In this document: piece after piece, positions 1,132 to 9,158 of the stretch
How the letters are laid out: each line of letters starts with the position of its first letter
How positions within the stretch are numbered: position 1 is the first letter of the stretch
From: Gammaproteobacteria bacterium
GTDB lineage: Bacteria; Pseudomonadota; Gammaproteobacteria; Steroidobacterales; GCA-2729495
Direction: 5' to 3'
Length of the DNA stretch: 33,476 bases
Assembly: GCA_027293165.1 (NCBI GenBank)
Contig: JAPUGB010000247.1
Coordinates: 1-33,476, forward strand
Position numbers and translations under genes: made by a program
The notes under the pieces: generated by a model
Seen by the model: the letters and a program-made list of their open reading frames with translations, nothing else
What the model was told of the DNA's origin: nothing
Databases searched by the model: none

Positions 1132-3879
1132 TTAACCTGAGTGCAGCCCGCGGGCGATTCCATTGACGCTGGCCAGCAGTGCGTTAAGGAGTTGCTCATC
1201 GTCCCGGTCTGCGGCGCGCCAACGCTGCAGTAGATCCACTTGCAGCAGGCTCATTGGGTCGACATAAGGATTGCGTAGGCGAATGGAGCGACGCAGAGTA
1301 GAACTGGACTCGAGCAGTTCCGTCTGTTGCTTCACGGCCAGTACGGCCGAAACCGATCGCTCGAACTCCGCCTCGATGAGCGGAAAATACAGGTTGTGCA
1401 GTTCTCCGGCAAGTGATGAATAACGCCGTGCAATACTAAAATCTGCGATCGCCAACGCCGCCTCGGCGTCTTCGAGCATGCGCTGAAAAAATGCCCAGGA
1501 GCGATTCATTTCTATAAGCACGTCCGTACCATAGGCATCGATGGCCGCGGTCAATCCGGCACCAAGCCCATACCACGATGGCAGTAGGTACCTGCTCAAT
1601 GTCCACGCGAACGTCCATGGCAAAGTCCGCGTGTTGCCCGCGAGAAAGTCCTGATGCGGCCGGTCGGACTGGCGCCCAATGCGCATATGCTCGATTACAT
1701 CAATCGGTGTAGCCTGTCTGAAGTAATCCGGAAATCGGCCCGATTCGAATACGAGGTTTTTGTAAGCATCGCGGCTGGTTACCGCGATCAGGTTCATGAT
1801 CGTCGCCCATTCCGCATTTTCTTCCAGCGTATCTTTACGCGGCAGCGCGGTTGCAACTGCAACAGCGCTGAAAGCTTTTTCCAGTGATCGGGATGCGATG
1901 CCGCGCAGGCCGAATCGCTCGTTTACGGCTTCGCCGTGCTCAGTGGCACGCAATTTCCCGCCCGCCGTGTCCTCGGCCTGCCCCCCGCGGGCAGCTTCGC
2001 CGCTGCGACCATGAAACACTGTGTACTCGATGTTTTCCCGGTCGAACAGTTCAACCAGCCTGGTCTGCGCCCACCGAAGGGCCCAACGGGCCGAAGCGAA
2101 GCTGCCATCGGCGCTGTACTCGGAATTACCGACCATGACGGTCTGGTGGTTATTACGCATCTTTAGGTGACGCCGATAGGTTGGATTGCTGAGCATCTCC
2201 TGCATGATCCGCGGCGCGCCGGCAAGTTCATGAACCGTGTCAAACATCGGCGCAATGTCGATTGCAATTGTGCCGTCGCGGCGGCGCAGATCACTCCAGC
2301 CTGCCAATAGAATGACTGCTAATGCGTCCTCAACGCCGCGGAATTTGCTAATGACGAATGGCCCGATGGCGCGCCGGCCATATTTTCGCCGGCAGAACGC
2401 AATAGACTGACAGATAGACAATGCCCGCTTACTTTCGTTATCGAGGTGCGGCGCAGCCGACTCATTCTTCTCCAGGGCGCGGCTAATCCGCTCAACTCGA
2501 TTCTCAGCGGATTGACTGGCCCAGTCGGCCTCGCCGAGGCTTTGTCCGACAACTCGCTGCAATTCATCGGCGTCCTCGTGGATGTCCAGCGTCAAAAAGT
2601 GAAACCCGAAGGTCTCTGCCCGCCGGATCAAACGTCTTACTGCGAATAGGCCAGCATTTGCGCCGTGGTGTGCTTCCAGACTGGCGCCGATCAATTCCAG
2701 GTCCGCTATGAATTGATCCACTGATTCATATGGGTAGACGTCATCGTCGTAGGTGGATCGGAGACGCTCGGCCACCAGCCTTAACAACATGCGGTACGGC
2801 ATGCGCCGGTAGCGGGCGGGGATCGAGCCGCGGGTATTGGGAAACTGGCCGCTATATTCATCAACGCGATCGTCGATCTTCTGGTCGTAGCCGACGCGAC
2901 TGGAACTTTGGCTAAGCTTCTCCGAAAGCGCCAGGCATTCGCTGTAATAAAGATTGAGAATCAGAGAACGATGGCGCGAAGTCGTTTCACGGATAATCCG
3001 GGCACCGGTTTCCGGGTCGTCGGCTAGGTCTCCTCCAACCCAGGAACCGAACCGAACCAGCGTTGGCAGGCGAAGTTGATCAACCGCGCTTCCATAGGCC
3101 TCTCCCAGCGCGTCATGGAGGGACTCGTAGAATGACGGTATCACGCGGTAGATTACGTCGGTCAAAAAGAACAACATGTGTTCGAGTTCGTCGAACACGG
3201 TCGGTGCCTCCGCCGAGTTCTCCTCGGTTTGCCAGATTGTTGTCACGTCCGCTCGAATGTTCTCGAAACAAGCTCTGCTTTCTTGTGGCGTGAGAGTGGG
3301 ATTTTGCATTTCGATCAAACGACGCACGATATTTTGCTGTTTTCTCAATATCGTTCGGCGGGTCGTTGCTGTGGGATGCGCAGTGAATACCGGTTCAATC
3401 TCGAGTTTCTCCAGCAGGCTTGCCACATCCTGCAAAGATAGACCGGCGTCCCGGAGCTTAAAGGCAGTTTCGTCCAACGCCAAGGGTTGTCGCACCTTCG
3501 CATCCTTGAGGTAGGCACGGCGTCGACGAATGCGATGCACCTGTTCGGCGCTATTAACAACTTGGAAATATGCTGAGAACGCTTTGATAAATTCCTGGGC
3601 TTCGGGCGCTGACAGTTGTCTGACCAGGGCGTTCAGCTTTTCGGCTGCCTGGGGATCGCCTTCCCGTGCCCCGATGGCGAGCTGGCGGGCAGTTTCTACA
3701 GCATCGTAGAGGGGCTCCCCGCCTTGCTCGATTAACAGTTCCCCGATCATGGTGCCGAGCGCATGCACATCCTGGCGCAGCGCTTCGTCCTTCTCGGCGA
3801 AGCGAATATCCTGGCGTCGTCCCGCGGCGGATAGTGCAGGGTCTTGTGCGGGCGGTGCCTGACGCTTTTGAACTGACAT
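1132..3879 (-). CDS. ppc: PEP carboxylase family protein with altered active site
   Basis: A 915-residue homologue of phosphoenolpyruvate carboxylase, the normal length (about 880-930), alignable end to end. Retained: the active-site His in FTAHPT (H168), FHGR with H623 and R625, the second loop Arg (R631), PWTFAW followed by an Arg, and IRLRNPYVDP. Changed against E. coli and Xanthomonas enzymes as I remember them: TAHPTE to TAHPTA; GGDxDGNP to GGDLADDP; the Arg of DIRQE to His (H434); the metal-binding Glu of LFET to Asp (D547); GYSDSxKD to GNSEYSAD (residues 584-591), which loses the loop Lys and swaps the metal-binding Asp for Glu; GRGG to GRSG; the Lys of FxKxD to Ile (I811); and the C-terminal NTG to HSG. 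The fold is surely PEP carboxylase, but ordinary oxaloacetate-forming activity is doubtful. No frameshift is visible. The ATG at 3879 lacks a strong Shine-Dalgarno sequence. Confidence 0.88.
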   Translation of the reverse strand: MSVQKRQAPPAQDPALSAAGRRQDIRFAEKDEALRQDVHALGTMIGELLIEQGGEPLYDAVETARQLAIGAREGDPQAAEKLNALVRQLSAPEAQEFIKAFSAYFQVVNSAEQVHRIRRRRAYLKDAKVRQPLALDETAFKLRDAGLSLQDVASLLEKLEIEPVFTAHPTATTRRTILRKQQNIVRRLIEMQNPTLTPQESRACFENIRADVTTIWQTEENSAEAPTVFDELEHMLFFLTDVIYRVIPSFYESLHDALGEAYGSAVDQLRLPTLVRFGSWVGGDLADDPETGARIIRETTSRHRSLILNLYYSECLALSEKLSQSSSRVGYDQKIDDRVDEYSGQFPNTRGSIPARYRRMPYRMLLRLVAERLRSTYDDDVYPYESVDQFIADLELIGASLEAHHGANAGLFAVRRLIRRAETFGFHFLTLDIHEDADELQRVVGQSLGEADWASQSAENRVERISRALEKNESAAPHLDNESKRALSICQSIAFCRRKYGRRAIGPFVISKFRGVEDALAVILLAGWSDLRRRDGTIAIDIAPMFDTVHELAGAPRIMQEMLSNPTYRRHLKMRNNHQTVMVGNSEYSADGSFASARWALRWAQTRLVELFDRENIEYTVFHGRSGEAARGGQAEDTAGGKLRATEHGEAVNERFGLRGIASRSLEKAFSAVAVATALPRKDTLEENAEWATIMNLIAVTSRDAYKNLVFESGRFPDYFRQATPIDVIEHMRIGRQSDRPHQDFLAGNTRTLPWTFAWTLSRYLLPSWYGLGAGLTAAIDAYGTDVLIEMNRSWAFFQRMLEDAEAALAIADFSIARRYSSLAGELHNLYFPLIEAEFERSVSAVLAVKQQTELLESSSTLRRSIRLRNPYVDPMSLLQVDLLQRWRAADRDDEQLLNALLASVNGIARGLHSG

Positions 3880-4115: not shown

Positions 4116-5591
4116 GTGCCTAACCTGGAGACCGCAAAGTCGATGGGCCAATTCGCGCGACCTTCAGACCGTGGCGTCGCAGCACGCCGAACCCAGGCGT
4201 CGACGCAGCAGCCGCTGGACTCGAGTTCACAAAAGCGGCTCGCGATTCTGGCGGCCGCCGGTGAACCACGCCGGGAGCACTGGCAACGCCGCTTCCAGTG
4301 TCTTTTGGCAAGCCGTGCGATCGGTGCCTTGTCGGGGGGCGAAGTTCCCGATATCGACGCTGGCGCTTTAGCGGGGCAATTTGGCTTGCGGTTCCGGAAG
4401 GTGCCGGCAGACCGGGGCGGCTTTTCGGCGAGCATCGCATTTATTGCCCAGCGAGTTGCGCCGTTGCTGTCGGCCGGCCGGAAAGTTTGCGTCGATCTGA
4501 CCCCAGTGCCGGGCGACACGTTCGAACCGGCTAACGGCGAGTCGGGCTTCGCCGCTTTTTGCGCCGCATTGCAGGTTCATCTCCCCAGCTTTTTTGGCAG
4601 CGCCAAGCCCCGGCCTGGCCAATTGATGTTTTCATTACTTGCGGATCATCCGGGACTGCCGGCCTTCCTGAAATTGCGCGAAATCGACGCGCTGGCCTGT
4701 CCATATCTGGGGATACGCATACCGAATCGAATGATGTCCCGGCTGCGGTTCGGTACCGGCGAGACCAACGGGGGCGATTCTGCCTGCGCAGAGAATCCGG
4801 ACTCCATTTGGGAGCGGTTGACCCGCACCAGTCATCAGGACCCGGGGGTGGTGCTGATCCTGGCAGCAACGACGCTGCCGCTGTCGGATTTGCATTCGTC
4901 GGAACGCTGTGAGGTAGCGATGCCGCAGAGCTTGTTCGAGGCGCCGGCCGATTCGGCATGGCTGGCACTGCAGCTCGATGTCAGCAGGCTCGTGGACCCG
5001 GTCGCCGGTATCGGATTTCGGCGATTGCGCCCCATACTTCGGGCCGGATTGCGCTTCGCGGACAATCTCGTCGATTGCGTTGAATGGCCATGGGCCAGTC
5101 TTCGCCTCGATGCGATGCTGAATCGTCGTGTTGCGGTTCATCTTGTCGGAATTGGCGACCTGGTCGACAAGCTTGATCTGGATCCGCTCGACTTCAGATC
5201 ATTGCAGCTTGTGGCCAGGTGGCTGGGGCTGATGAAACGCGTGCTGATTCGCGAGTCGGCAGCGCTGGCGCGCCGACGAGGACCGTTTCCCGGACTCGGT
5301 GTAAATGATTTGGTGCGTAACCTGGCCCCACACTATGGCCTCAAAGATGCAGAGCGTTTGATTCGTCAGCATAGCCTGCGTCACCGTCATTTACTTGCGA
5401 TATCTCCGTGGGCGATCTTCCCGTCTTCTGCCTCAAAGCACCCCACAATAGAGTATTGCAACCTGCTGCCGGCGATAAGTTGCGCGGATACCATCAACAT
5501 GTATGGCGACCATAAGCGGCATGGCCTGCCGCTGCGACACTACCGCCAGCTCATGCGCATGACCTGGGCCTTGTCGCGCAACCGGCGCTGA
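4116..5591 (+). CDS. Degenerate ribonucleotide reductase-like protein
   Basis: Intact 491-codon frame with no obvious function. The order of motifs matches the large chain of class I/II ribonucleotide reductases, most like the adenosylcobalamin type. LLADHPGLPAFLKLRE (174-189) resembles the HPDI-x-x-FI-x-x-K segment; LGIRIPNRMM (198-207) the NxSVxVTDxFM segment; DPGVVLI (242-248) the DPGVxFIDR segment; LRFADNLVD (312-320) the VRFLDNVID helix; NRRVAVHLVGIGDLVDKLDL (336-355) the RRIGLGxMGxADLLxxLGI segment; RRRGPFP (386-392) the ERGxFP segment; and LLAISPWAIFPSS (426-438) the TIAPTGTIS loop. The active-site NPCGE is ERCEV (263-267): the Cys survives, the Asn and Glu do not, and the N-terminal strand carrying the partner cysteine is missing. 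It is probably not a reductase. The start is GTG at 4116; ATG 4143 is an alternative, and recognisable homology begins near residue 55. Confidence 0.72.
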   Translation: MPNLETAKSMGQFARPSDRGVAARRTQASTQQPLDSSSQKRLAILAAAGEPRREHWQRRFQCLLASRAIGALSGGEVPDIDAGALAGQFGLRFRKVPADRGGFSASIAFIAQRVAPLLSAGRKVCVDLTPVPGDTFEPANGESGFAAFCAALQVHLPSFFGSAKPRPGQLMFSLLADHPGLPAFLKLREIDALACPYLGIRIPNRMMSRLRFGTGETNGGDSACAENPDSIWERLTRTSHQDPGVVLILAATTLPLSDLHSSERCEVAMPQSLFEAPADSAWLALQLDVSRLVDPVAGIGFRRLRPILRAGLRFADNLVDCVEWPWASLRLDAMLNRRVAVHLVGIGDLVDKLDLDPLDFRSLQLVARWLGLMKRVLIRESAALARRRGPFPGLGVNDLVRNLAPHYGLKDAERLIRQHSLRHRHLLAISPWAIFPSSASKHPTIEYCNLLPAISCADTINMYGDHKRHGLPLRHYRQLMRMTWALSRNRR

Positions 5592-5746: not shown

Positions 5747-7564
5747 TTGCCCCCACCGCCAAACATACACGCTGTTGCTGTCATCTTTTTGACCGGCGTC
5801 GCCCTGTTCCTGTTTACCAGGGATCGCGTTCCACTGGAGGGTACAGCTCTGGCGGTCCTGACCTTGCTGGTGCTCGGCTTTTACCTGTTTCCTTATGGCA
5901 GCGTGCAGCCAGCAGACTTTTTCCGCTCCTTTGGTCACGAGGCGCTGATCACGATCAGTGCGTTGCTGATTGTCAGCAAGGGCCTTGAAACCACTGGCGC
6001 ACTCCAACCACTGGCGTCGATCATGGCGAGTGGATGGCAGGAACGCCCCGGCCTTTCGTTACTGACGACGCTGGTGGTTGGTGCAGTCGCCAGCGCGTTT
6101 CTCAACAACACTCCTATCGTCGTCATGTTACTGCCGATCCTGGTCGCCGTTTGCCTCAGAAGTAGTGCCGTGCCTTCCAGCGTGCTGCTACCTATGGGTC
6201 TGTCGACTTTGATTGGTGGCATGGCGACGACCATTGGCACCTCGACCAATCTGCTCGTCGTGGGGATCGTTGCCGATCGCGGTTTGCCGGTTCTGGAAAT
6301 GTTTGATTTCGCCTGGCCGGTGGTGATAGTGGGGATTCCCGGCATTTTGTTTCTGTGGCTTGTTGCGCCGCGCCTGCTGCCGGAGCGCGAACCACCGATG
6401 TCCGATATCTCGCCGCGTGTTTTCAAAGCGTTGCTTCACGTGAACGAAGACAGCTTTGCTTTTGGAGAAACTCTCTCAGCGGTATTGGCAAAGACCGAGA
6501 ACCGCATGCGAGTCGACCAGATTCAGCGTGGTGACAACCTTACCGTTGCGCGTCTCCCTGAGGTCACATTGCAGGCGGGCGATCGCCTGTATGTAAAAGA
6601 TACTGCTGATCGGCTGAAGGAGTTCGAGCAATTGCTCGGGGCAACCCTGTTCAACGCCAGTGATATCGAGCACCCGATCAGCGAAGAATTTCCACTGGCG
6701 ACCGAGGACCAGCAACTTGCCGAGGTTGTTATTTCACGAGGTTCACCGCTGCACCAACGGACATTGAACGCGGCGCAGTTTACGGGCCGCTATGCACTGG
6801 TACCGCTGGCCATACACCGTGCTCGACCGTCGGCTGATGTTGTGGGTGATCTGGGTGCGACCCGCTTGAGAGCCGGAGACGTGTTGCTTGTGCAGGGTTC
6901 CCGCGAAGCTATAGCTGATCTTCGCGCCAGCGGGTCGATGATGGTGCTGGATGGCGCAATGGACCTGCCGCACACGGACCGCGCCAACTGGGCATTGGGC
7001 ATCATGATAGGCGTTGTATTTTTCGCCGCCACGGGTTTGCTGCCGATATCGATTAGTGCAGTGGCCGGCGTAGGTTTGATGCTAGTTACCGGGTCTCTCA
7101 GGTGGCGAGATGTCGGCGATGCTCTGAATATTCCGGTCATTATGATTATTGTCGCCAGCCTTTCGCTGGGATTCGCGTTAATGGTAACTGGCGGCGCGGA
7201 ATACATCGCGCAGATTTTTGTCGCCGTAACCGGCGGACTACCCACGCCATTGGTACTAAGCGGTCTGATGTTGCTAATGACGGTGCTTACCAACGTTGTT
7301 TCGAATAATGCAGCGGCGGTGATCGGAACACCGATCGCAATAAGCGTCGCGCAACAGCTTGGTGCGCCAACCGAGCCATTCATCCTGGCGGTGATATTTG
7401 GTGCCAACATGAGTTTTGCCACACCCATCGGTTATCAGACGAATCTCCTGATCATGAGTGCCGGCGGGTACCATTTCACCGACTTTCTGCGAGTCGGCAT
7501 ACCCCTGACGGTGATCATGTGGCTGGGGTTTTCGATCGTCCTGCCGATACTGTACGGCCTGTAG
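5747..7564 (+). CDS. SLC13/ArsB-type permease with internal TrkA-C domains
   Basis: A 605-residue inner-membrane transporter of the ion-transporter superfamily (DASS/SLC13, ArsB, NhaD). About five to six hydrophobic helices come first, then a soluble insert (about residues 215-405), then about six more helices. The two halves carry matching hairpin motifs, FLNNTPIVVMLLP and VVSNNAAAVIGTP, and matching GTSTNLLVVG and IGYQTNLLIMSAGG segments, the hallmark of this inverted-repeat fold. The insert looks like two TrkA-C (RCK_C) ligand-binding modules; the second, LAEVVISRGSPLHQRTL, is clear. Related proteins are annotated as sulfate, dicarboxylate or sodium-coupled carriers; the substrate cannot be read here. 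The start is TTG at 5747, placed just before the first helix; the frame opens only at 5681 and I see no better ATG or GTG, so the start is the least certain part. Confidence 0.88.
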   Translation: MPPPPNIHAVAVIFLTGVALFLFTRDRVPLEGTALAVLTLLVLGFYLFPYGSVQPADFFRSFGHEALITISALLIVSKGLETTGALQPLASIMASGWQERPGLSLLTTLVVGAVASAFLNNTPIVVMLLPILVAVCLRSSAVPSSVLLPMGLSTLIGGMATTIGTSTNLLVVGIVADRGLPVLEMFDFAWPVVIVGIPGILFLWLVAPRLLPEREPPMSDISPRVFKALLHVNEDSFAFGETLSAVLAKTENRMRVDQIQRGDNLTVARLPEVTLQAGDRLYVKDTADRLKEFEQLLGATLFNASDIEHPISEEFPLATEDQQLAEVVISRGSPLHQRTLNAAQFTGRYALVPLAIHRARPSADVVGDLGATRLRAGDVLLVQGSREAIADLRASGSMMVLDGAMDLPHTDRANWALGIMIGVVFFAATGLLPISISAVAGVGLMLVTGSLRWRDVGDALNIPVIMIIVASLSLGFALMVTGGAEYIAQIFVAVTGGLPTPLVLSGLMLLMTVLTNVVSNNAAAVIGTPIAISVAQQLGAPTEPFILAVIFGANMSFATPIGYQTNLLIMSAGGYHFTDFLRVGIPLTVIMWLGFSIVLPILYGL

Positions 7565-7681: not shown

Positions 7682-7738
7682 TCTGTAGCGCCGATAGAGC
7701 CAGCAACCCATCTCCGTGTTAACGGGGATGGGTTTTTT
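7652..7738 (+). promoter_or_regulatory. trp attenuator: pause, antiterminator and terminator hairpins
   Basis: Three alternative structures can be drawn. Hairpin 1:2 is CCCTTCTC with GAGAGGG (7652-7670), directly after the Trp codons. The antiterminator pairs CGGAGAGGG (7662-7670) with CCCATCTCCG (7707-7716; one bulged A) and continues inward with GCTGGCT (7673-7679) against AGCCAGC (7698-7704). The terminator pairs the same CCCATCTCCG with CGGGGATGGG (7723-7732). A ribosome stalled at 7643-7651 would cover the 5' arm of hairpin 1:2 and free the antiterminator strand. A ribosome reaching the TAG at 7679 would cover that strand and let the terminator form. Confidence 0.85.
7707..7738 (+). terminator. 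trp attenuator intrinsic terminator
   Basis: A 10-bp stem (7707-7716 with 7723-7732, one G-U pair), a 6-base loop and a run of six T (7733-7738). It lies 28 bases upstream of trpE, so it is a regulated leader terminator and not the end of the permease transcript. Confidence 0.9.
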
Positions 7739-7766
7739 ATTGCTCCGCAAAAAATTCAGGAAGTTG

Positions 7767-9158
7767 ATGGAAGCACCATTTGACATAGCCGCAGACCTTG
7801 ATACACCCGTGTCGACCTACATGAAGCTCCGCCCATTGAAACCGCGGTTTCTGCTGGAGAGCGTGGAGGGTGGCGTCCAACTTGCGCGCTACTCTTTTCT
7901 AGGATTCGGTGAGGCGCTCGAACTACGCCTTGACGATGCTGGCCTGCGTTACGATGGGCAATCTTTCCCGCGACCTGGCAATCAGTCAGATTTACTGGGC
8001 GCACTTCGCGATGCAGTGTCGCGAACTCCACAGCTACTACCACATATCCCCGAATTGCCGTTCAGTGGTGGTTTGGTTGGCAGCGCCGGGTACGACACCG
8101 TGAGGTATTTCGAGCGCCTGCCGAATTCGCCACAGTTGATCGACGAGCCGCGAGCCCCGGAAGCGGCCTATCTGGCGCCGGATTCTCTGCTCGTTTTCGA
8201 TCATCTCACACGGCGAATCGCATTGCTGCATGCGGGTCCGGATACCGAGCGTCAGGAGTTGCGAGGCGAAGTCAGGCGACTGCTTGCCGGACCCATGCCA
8301 AGGATGTCGAAAAAAGCCAGGCTCGGGCCTGTGAAATCAAGTCTATCGGCCGACGAGTTTATGGCTGCCGTGGAGCGAAGCAAACACTACATTGCCAGGG
8401 GAGACATTTATCAGCTTGTTCTATCCGTTCGATTCGCCGGATCGCATGAACTGGAGCCATTCGAAACGTATCGTGCGCTGCGGTTGTTAAACCCCTCTCC
8501 CTACATGTTTTTCTGTGATCTCGGTGATATGCAGGTCGTTGGATCATCTCCCGAAGCGCTGGTCCGCCTTCGCGGTCGCGATGTATCCCTGAGACCGATT
8601 GCAGGCACACGGCCCCGTGGTGCGGATGCCGATGAGGACCGCGCGAACGAAGATTCGCTGTTGCTCGATGAGAAAGAGAATGCCGAGCATGTCATGCTGG
8701 TCGATCTGGCACGCAACGACCTTGGGCGGGTCGCTGCTGCGGGCAGCGTAAGGGTCGAACCATACCGGGCGATCGAACGATACAGTCATGTGATGCATAT
8801 TGTCAGCGGGGTGCAGGGAATCCTGCGGGACGATAAGGATGCGTTCGATTTGTTCGCCGCGGTATTTCCAGCGGGAACGCTGGTTGGTGCGCCAAAGGTG
8901 CGGGCAATGGAGCTGATCGACGAAATGGAGCCGATACGGCGTGGCGTTTATGCCGGTACGGTCGGTTATTTCGGCAACAATGGCGATATGGATCAGGCCA
9001 TCGCGATTCGCACGCTGGTTTTTCAGGGTGATCGCTTTAGCTACCAGGCGGGTGCGGGAATTGTAGCGGACAGTATTCCGGATTATGAGTACCGAGAGGT
9101 ACTGGCGAAGAGCGCTATTCTTAGCCGCGCACTGGCGATGGCGGAGGAAGGACTGTGA
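7767..9158 (+). CDS. trpE: Anthranilate synthase component I
   Basis: Converts chorismate plus ammonia (from TrpG) to anthranilate, the first committed step of tryptophan synthesis. 463 residues. The N-terminal regulatory motif LLES (29-32), which in E. coli TrpE forms part of the feedback site for tryptophan, is present. The chorismate-binding domain shows [48 protein letters not shown] and [11 protein letters not shown], all canonical. The frame is open from inside the terminator, but ATG 7767 is preceded by AGGA (7758-7761) at good spacing and follows the attenuator, so I take it as the start. It overlaps trpG by one base (TGATG), indicating translational coupling of the two subunits. Confidence 0.97.

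Follow-up and report, generated by a model that had tools for sequence, protein, structure and literature searches.

The window, which is the whole 33,476-nucleotide stretch of DNA that was analysed, is contig 165 of a gammaproteobacterial draft genome of 2.36 Mb that is 92.7% complete. The gene of interest is an open reading frame of 491 amino acids whose product resembles ribonucleotide reductase (RNR), and it is referred to here as RNRl. It was defined by domain, profile and codon comparisons, and its neighbours were assigned by domain matches and comparison of loci. The genes of the locus are:

1132-3879, reverse strand: ppc, encoding phosphoenolpyruvate carboxylase, the divergent neighbour at most loci
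4116-5591, forward strand: RNRl, the putative RNR-like pseudoenzyme gene, with a GTG start
5747-7564, forward strand: gene for an SLC13-type transporter with TrkA-C domains, the downstream neighbour in most lineages
7716-9158, forward strand: trpE open reading frame, the next neighbour and the first of a run of trp genes

The start codon of RNRl is GTG in the window and ATG in the sister genome of the same genus (G001), and neither a promoter scan nor an Rfam search gave a match for the gene. A strong terminator-like hairpin of 13 pairs with a T-run (7705-7734) lies between the SLC13 gene and the homologous start of trpE. This hairpin may be a terminator or a trp attenuator, and it suggests that trpE forms a unit of its own, apart from RNRl-SLC13. 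It also indicates that the GTG listed as the trpE start (7716) probably lies too far upstream, the true start being probably some 50 bases later. Five loci (L034, L074, L076, L079 and L080) carry a tandem pair of SLC13 genes between RNRl and trpE; their close relatives L035, L073 and L075 have none.

The initial annotation had found a series of RNR-barrel motifs in this frame and proposed descent from the class II RNR barrel, and the coordinates, the motifs and the descent all held on analysis. The RNR barrel family of Pfam (PF02867) matches residues 296-431 with an E-value of 1.2e-5, exceeding the family cutoff. The best sequence match is the NCBIfam family PRK06948 / NF005401 ('ribonucleotide reductase-like'; E 1.2e-14), with a score of 54 bits that is far under the curated cutoff of 906 bits. 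When solved structures were searched by sequence the sole plausible match was Thermotoga maritima NrdJ (E 0.0065). Profile-profile comparison using an alignment of 19 RNRl relatives (A1) matched the family to class II RNRs with a probability of 99.3% and an E-value of 1.5e-20 (residues 37-431 of the query, 88-563 of NrdJa), and ten column-shuffled controls gave probabilities of 0.0-0.3%.

The predicted structure (pLDDT 76.7, pTM 0.78) has the α/β barrel fold of RNR. Foldseek matched it to T. maritima NrdJ with an E-value of 1.3e-13, and residues 28-488 superpose on NrdJ with a Z-score of 23.5 over 409 residues at 3.8 Å. The two outcomes that the initial annotation had named as counting against it, a failure to match the barrel fold and homologues with an intact catalytic set, were both looked for and neither was observed, the barrel match being strong. 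The best-scoring structure match is a class Id α subunit (Z 26.7). The fold match by itself does not tell RNR classes apart; the assignment to class II comes from the best full-sequence matches, which are class II RNRs. When the C-terminal half was modelled alone it matched NrdJ 275-622 with a Z-score of about 12, which is middling by the tool's own guide. RNRl thus descends, with much divergence, from the class II RNR α barrel and is a non-catalytic paralogue. Its parental type is likely to be the short class II RNRs, of about 600 residues, that occur in the gammaproteobacterial order to which the genome belongs.

The features of the protein that bear on catalysis and constraint are listed below, all on the forward strand, with the source of each assignment in brackets:

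4389-4391, forward strand: Arg92, aligned with the N-terminal redox cysteine of class II RNR, Cys145 of the genome's own NrdJa (profile alignment)
4881-5588, forward strand: C-terminal, catalytic half of the barrel, about residues 256-491, the most constrained part and the only one kept in half-length relatives (dN/dS, half-length copies, model of the half)
4902-4916, forward strand: ERCEV (263-267), aligned with ENIRA just upstream of NPCGE, with Glu263 invariant (profile alignment)
4920-4934, forward strand: MPQSL (269-273), the true NPCGE equivalent, with Asn changed to Met, Cys to Gln and Glu to Leu, and Pro270 invariant (profile alignment)
4959-4961, forward strand: Trp282, invariant in the family, which replaces the second redox cysteine (alignment)
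5403-5420, forward strand: SPWAIF (430-435), where class II RNR has the substrate-phosphate loop APTGTIS (alignment)
5463-5489, forward strand: family-specific C-terminal motif LLP....AD, which reads LLPAISCAD (450-458) in the window (alignment)

The loss of catalytic residues had originally been read from ERCEV, taken as the NPCGE active-site loop. The loss is real but the register was wrong, since the profile alignment has two anchors (Glu263 and Pro270) that are invariant in both RNRl and RNR, is ungapped between them, and puts NPCGE of the genome's own NrdJa (364-368) on M269-P-Q-S-L273, six residues downstream of ERCEV. The N-terminal redox strand had been thought missing but is present: LAGQFGLRF aligns on TSTINCTVS with Arg92 in place of the cysteine, and the model matches NrdJ from residue 28 on, this strand included. 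The region of RNRl that is shortened relative to class II RNR is the portion after SP431.

Catalytic loss is kept throughout the family. Each of the 21 aligned members has other residues in place of the thiyl-radical cysteine, asparagine and glutamate of NPCGE, and none has the Cys-Asn-Glu set: the radical position holds Leu, Gly, Gln, Ala, Val, Asn, His or Glu and never Cys, the Asn position is Met or Leu, and the Glu position is almost always Leu. The second redox position is Trp in 21 of 21, and the first, Arg in the window, is Cys in just three, so that the redox-active pair of the barrel is absent from RNRl (R92, W282). In place of the phosphate loop the window has SPWAIFP and most of the family SP(W/Y/F).(V/I/L)(F/L)P. 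Only 18 of approximately 113 aligned RNR-invariant residues are retained; the roughly 95 that have changed lie mainly in the N-terminal half and include those of GGRRGA, the Asn in the FNxSV motif and PTGT of the phosphate loop. The C-terminal tail ends in ...TWALSRNRR and contains no cysteine, and the NrdJb gene lies elsewhere in the genome. Because the Asn-Cys-Glu loop and the redox cysteines were looked for and found to be lost, RNRl was not classed as an RNR, and it would no longer be capable of thiyl-radical chemistry.

To establish how widespread the gene is we searched 296 sampled genomes of the same order with the A1 profile. Matches occurred in 122 of these, and after discounting genomes with matches to full RNRs only, the carriers number approximately 105. 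Among 274 genomes drawn across the class, the profile matched only full RNRs outside the order and no RNRl; two short frames in this set are fragments of true RNRs with NPCGE. In a quick tree the RNRl proteins form one clade (support 100), and the branch leading to it is long, at about 3.7 changes per site. RNRl has a single origin, no later than the common ancestor of those families of the order that carry it.

Purifying selection acts on RNRl and is concentrated in the C-terminal barrel half. The dN/dS between the window and its sister is 0.19-0.29, and in seven other pairs it is 0.14-0.27. By region it is 0.31 for residues 1-40, 0.22 for 40-120, 0.31 for 120-255, 0.07 for 255-400 and 0.17 for 400-490. 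The neighbouring genes have lower values (ppc 0.11 and SLC13 0.06, against 0.19 for RNRl). The family alignment contains 42 invariant columns at an identity of 34-41%, and the frame is open in nearly all copies. With the open frame, the selection and the catalytic loss shared by homologues, the view of RNRl as an intact, non-reducing RNR descendant is borne out.

Some relatives have been reduced to half the protein. Twelve inspected loci of one family (f7) have open reading frames of 261-316 amino acids (one at a contig end) between ppc and SLC13, and these align with the f7 profile in its C-terminal half only (from positions 184-220 of 469). A search of these twelve loci for an N-terminal remnant in any frame found none. 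One half-length copy (G491:C256:5568-6317) contains an in-frame TGA and is the sole broken copy seen. The N-terminal half of class II RNR holds the effector (specificity) site and the dimer interface. Since several f7 copies have no N-terminal half, the function common to the family is unlikely to be allosteric sensing or normal dimerisation, and should rather be sought on the conserved surface of the catalytic half.

We consider it probable, at about 0.72, that RNRl is a non-catalytic class II RNR pseudoenzyme that is kept in place by selection and acts by binding. The surface of its C-terminal barrel half would be what carries this binding or scaffold role. The alternative that survives best, although it is improbable, is an enzyme with a new, non-radical chemistry and a pocket rebuilt around E263, F274, W282, D332, H423, R424, S430 and D458. 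The catalytic half has invariant polar residues that are absent from RNR, including D332, E380, H423, R424, S430 and D458, and it is there that the strongest constraint falls. However, the half-length relatives have lost half the barrel, so that a closed pocket would need rebuilding or dimerisation, and some of the polar residues (e.g. R424 and D458) vary in f7, f12 and f4 copies.

The setting of the gene could also point to a role with its neighbours, either in the cytosol, as a partner for the SLC13/TrkA-C transporter, or as a factor in trp expression. Directly downstream of RNRl at every examined locus there is an SLC13-type transporter gene and/or trp genes, and different families share the arrangement RNRl, SLC13, trp, with divergent ppc upstream in nearly all of them. 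At several loci without SLC13 trpE directly follows RNRl, and at the f13 locus SLC13 is followed by trpD with no ppc match within reach. A role with the neighbours nevertheless seems quite unlikely: RNRl remains in carriers with no SLC13 gene at the locus (L035, L038, L073, L075), trpE is not adjacent to it in f13, the SLC13 and trp neighbours persist where RNRl has been lost, and the whole order from ppc to trp is conserved anyway. In a dozen genomes without RNRl, ppc directly adjoins SLC13. Because the locus is fixed and ppc lies beside SLC13 where RNRl is absent, RNRl either was part of the ancestral locus or entered it by one old insertion, and it was cleanly lost several times, in some genera. 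Having been lost several times, it is not essential.

An earlier idea, that RNRl senses nucleotides or cobalamin through an inherited effector, substrate or cofactor site, draws on the RNR fold being kept over residues 28-488 in the model of the window protein. This idea is weakened, as is that of regulation by canonical dimerisation, by the changes at some 95 RNR-invariant residues, among them those of GGRRGA, FNxSV and PTGT noted above, and by the deletion in several relatives of the half that bears the specificity site, and we consider a sensor very unlikely. A decaying, functionless pseudogene is the least credible explanation, as faster evolution than the neighbours, several clean losses and deletion of the N-terminal half in some lineages are outweighed by a frame open in almost all copies (the one TGA being that of G491), a dN/dS of 0.14-0.29 with a core at 0.07, and 42 invariant columns in so divergent a family.

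If RNRl is a binding pseudoenzyme, a candidate partner is the class II RNR itself (NrdJa or NrdJb), which we offer as a tentative guess. In Pseudomonas, NrdJb docks on the rim of the cofactor cleft and the C-terminal end of NrdJa (PMC4520616), and the guess was made because this docking region of NrdJa lies in the half that is retained in RNRl. Competition for NrdJb, or capping of NrdJa, by RNRl could then tune the supply of dNTPs. Slightly more doubtful is the fuller version, in which RNRl binds the only reductase of the cell (class II NrdJa/NrdJb) and controls dNTP supply, with some lineages shrunk to a half-barrel that keeps only the surface facing NrdJb. Were RNRl to bind NrdJa/NrdJb, it would represent protein-level control of class II RNR of an undescribed kind, and might reveal a dedicated regulator in organisms that rely on class II alone.

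The genome does contain a separate, motif-complete reductase, as the initial annotation had suggested should be checked. This is a split class II RNR on contig 158, made up of NrdJa (758 amino acids, with NPCGE) and NrdJb (245 amino acids), and RNRl is not located near nrdJ. An RNR barrel match was obtained in 95 of 99 relatives and a class I small subunit above the cutoff in only one of the 99. A link between RNRl and RNR class or class I loss was considered but no such signal emerged, and class II is the only RNR class in nearly all genomes of the order. Genomes with and without RNRl alike carry class II RNR, and because it is nearly universal in the order, genome content neither favours nor opposes a partnership of RNRl with NrdJa/NrdJb.

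Cells have no de novo route to DNA precursors other than RNR, and to our knowledge herpesviruses are the only known source of inactive RNR large subunits that have been retained for a different role. The betaherpesvirus R1 homologues (HCMV UL45, MCMV M45 and HHV-6B R1) have lost catalysis and been kept for binding roles (PMC5469499, PMC11772975). RNRl is like them in being an RNR large subunit without catalytic residues, but the viral proteins are of class I lineage and target host signalling proteins, whereas RNRl is bacterial, chromosomal and derived from class II. Its synteny within one bacterial order and its best matches to class II do not fit descent from a viral class I R1, and we regard the two as analogous rather than related. 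The nearest active enzymes are class II NrdJ and NrdJa (T. maritima NrdJ, 1XJE and 3O0O; P. aeruginosa split NrdJab), which share the fold over 28-488 and the 18 retained RNR-invariant residues. Unlike NrdJ, RNRl has no catalytic Asn-Cys-Glu, redox cysteine pair or phosphate loop, is shortened after SP431 and has half-length forms. PRK06948 was considered as a known inactive family and rejected, since NPC(G/A)E and the redox cysteine are intact in its members, as in the short class II RNRs, unlike in RNRl.

We found no description of an inactive cellular RNR paralogue in the open-access papers searched, an absence that is weak evidence, and term searches of two curated or family-wide RNR surveys and of a phylogenetic study (PMC2795772, PMC9669993, PMC3019208) gave no mention of one. 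The best reading is that RNRl is an undescribed bacterial RNR pseudoenzyme. A bacterial family kept at one locus, partly as a half-barrel, would show the re-use of an ancient radical fold without its chemistry. It is also an annotation trap, as Pfam labels these proteins RNR though the residues for catalysis are gone.

The RNRs fetched from the order and phylum retain NPC(G/A)E except for that of L234, in which the loop is apparently interrupted by an insertion. L234 is one of a set of NrdJ frames of about 1080-1160 amino acids with a match gap at the catalytic loop (the others being in genomes G005, G006, G012, G013, G018, G019, G024, G025, G029, G040, G055, G066, G068, G079 and G089), and the gap looks like an intein. 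The genomes with these intein-like long frames are all without RNRl; they are phylogenetically clustered, so this is possibly a coincidence. Some genomes of the order carry, alongside NrdJa/NrdJb, a second short class II RNR of about 600-680 amino acids with an intact NPC(G/A)E (L241-L250).
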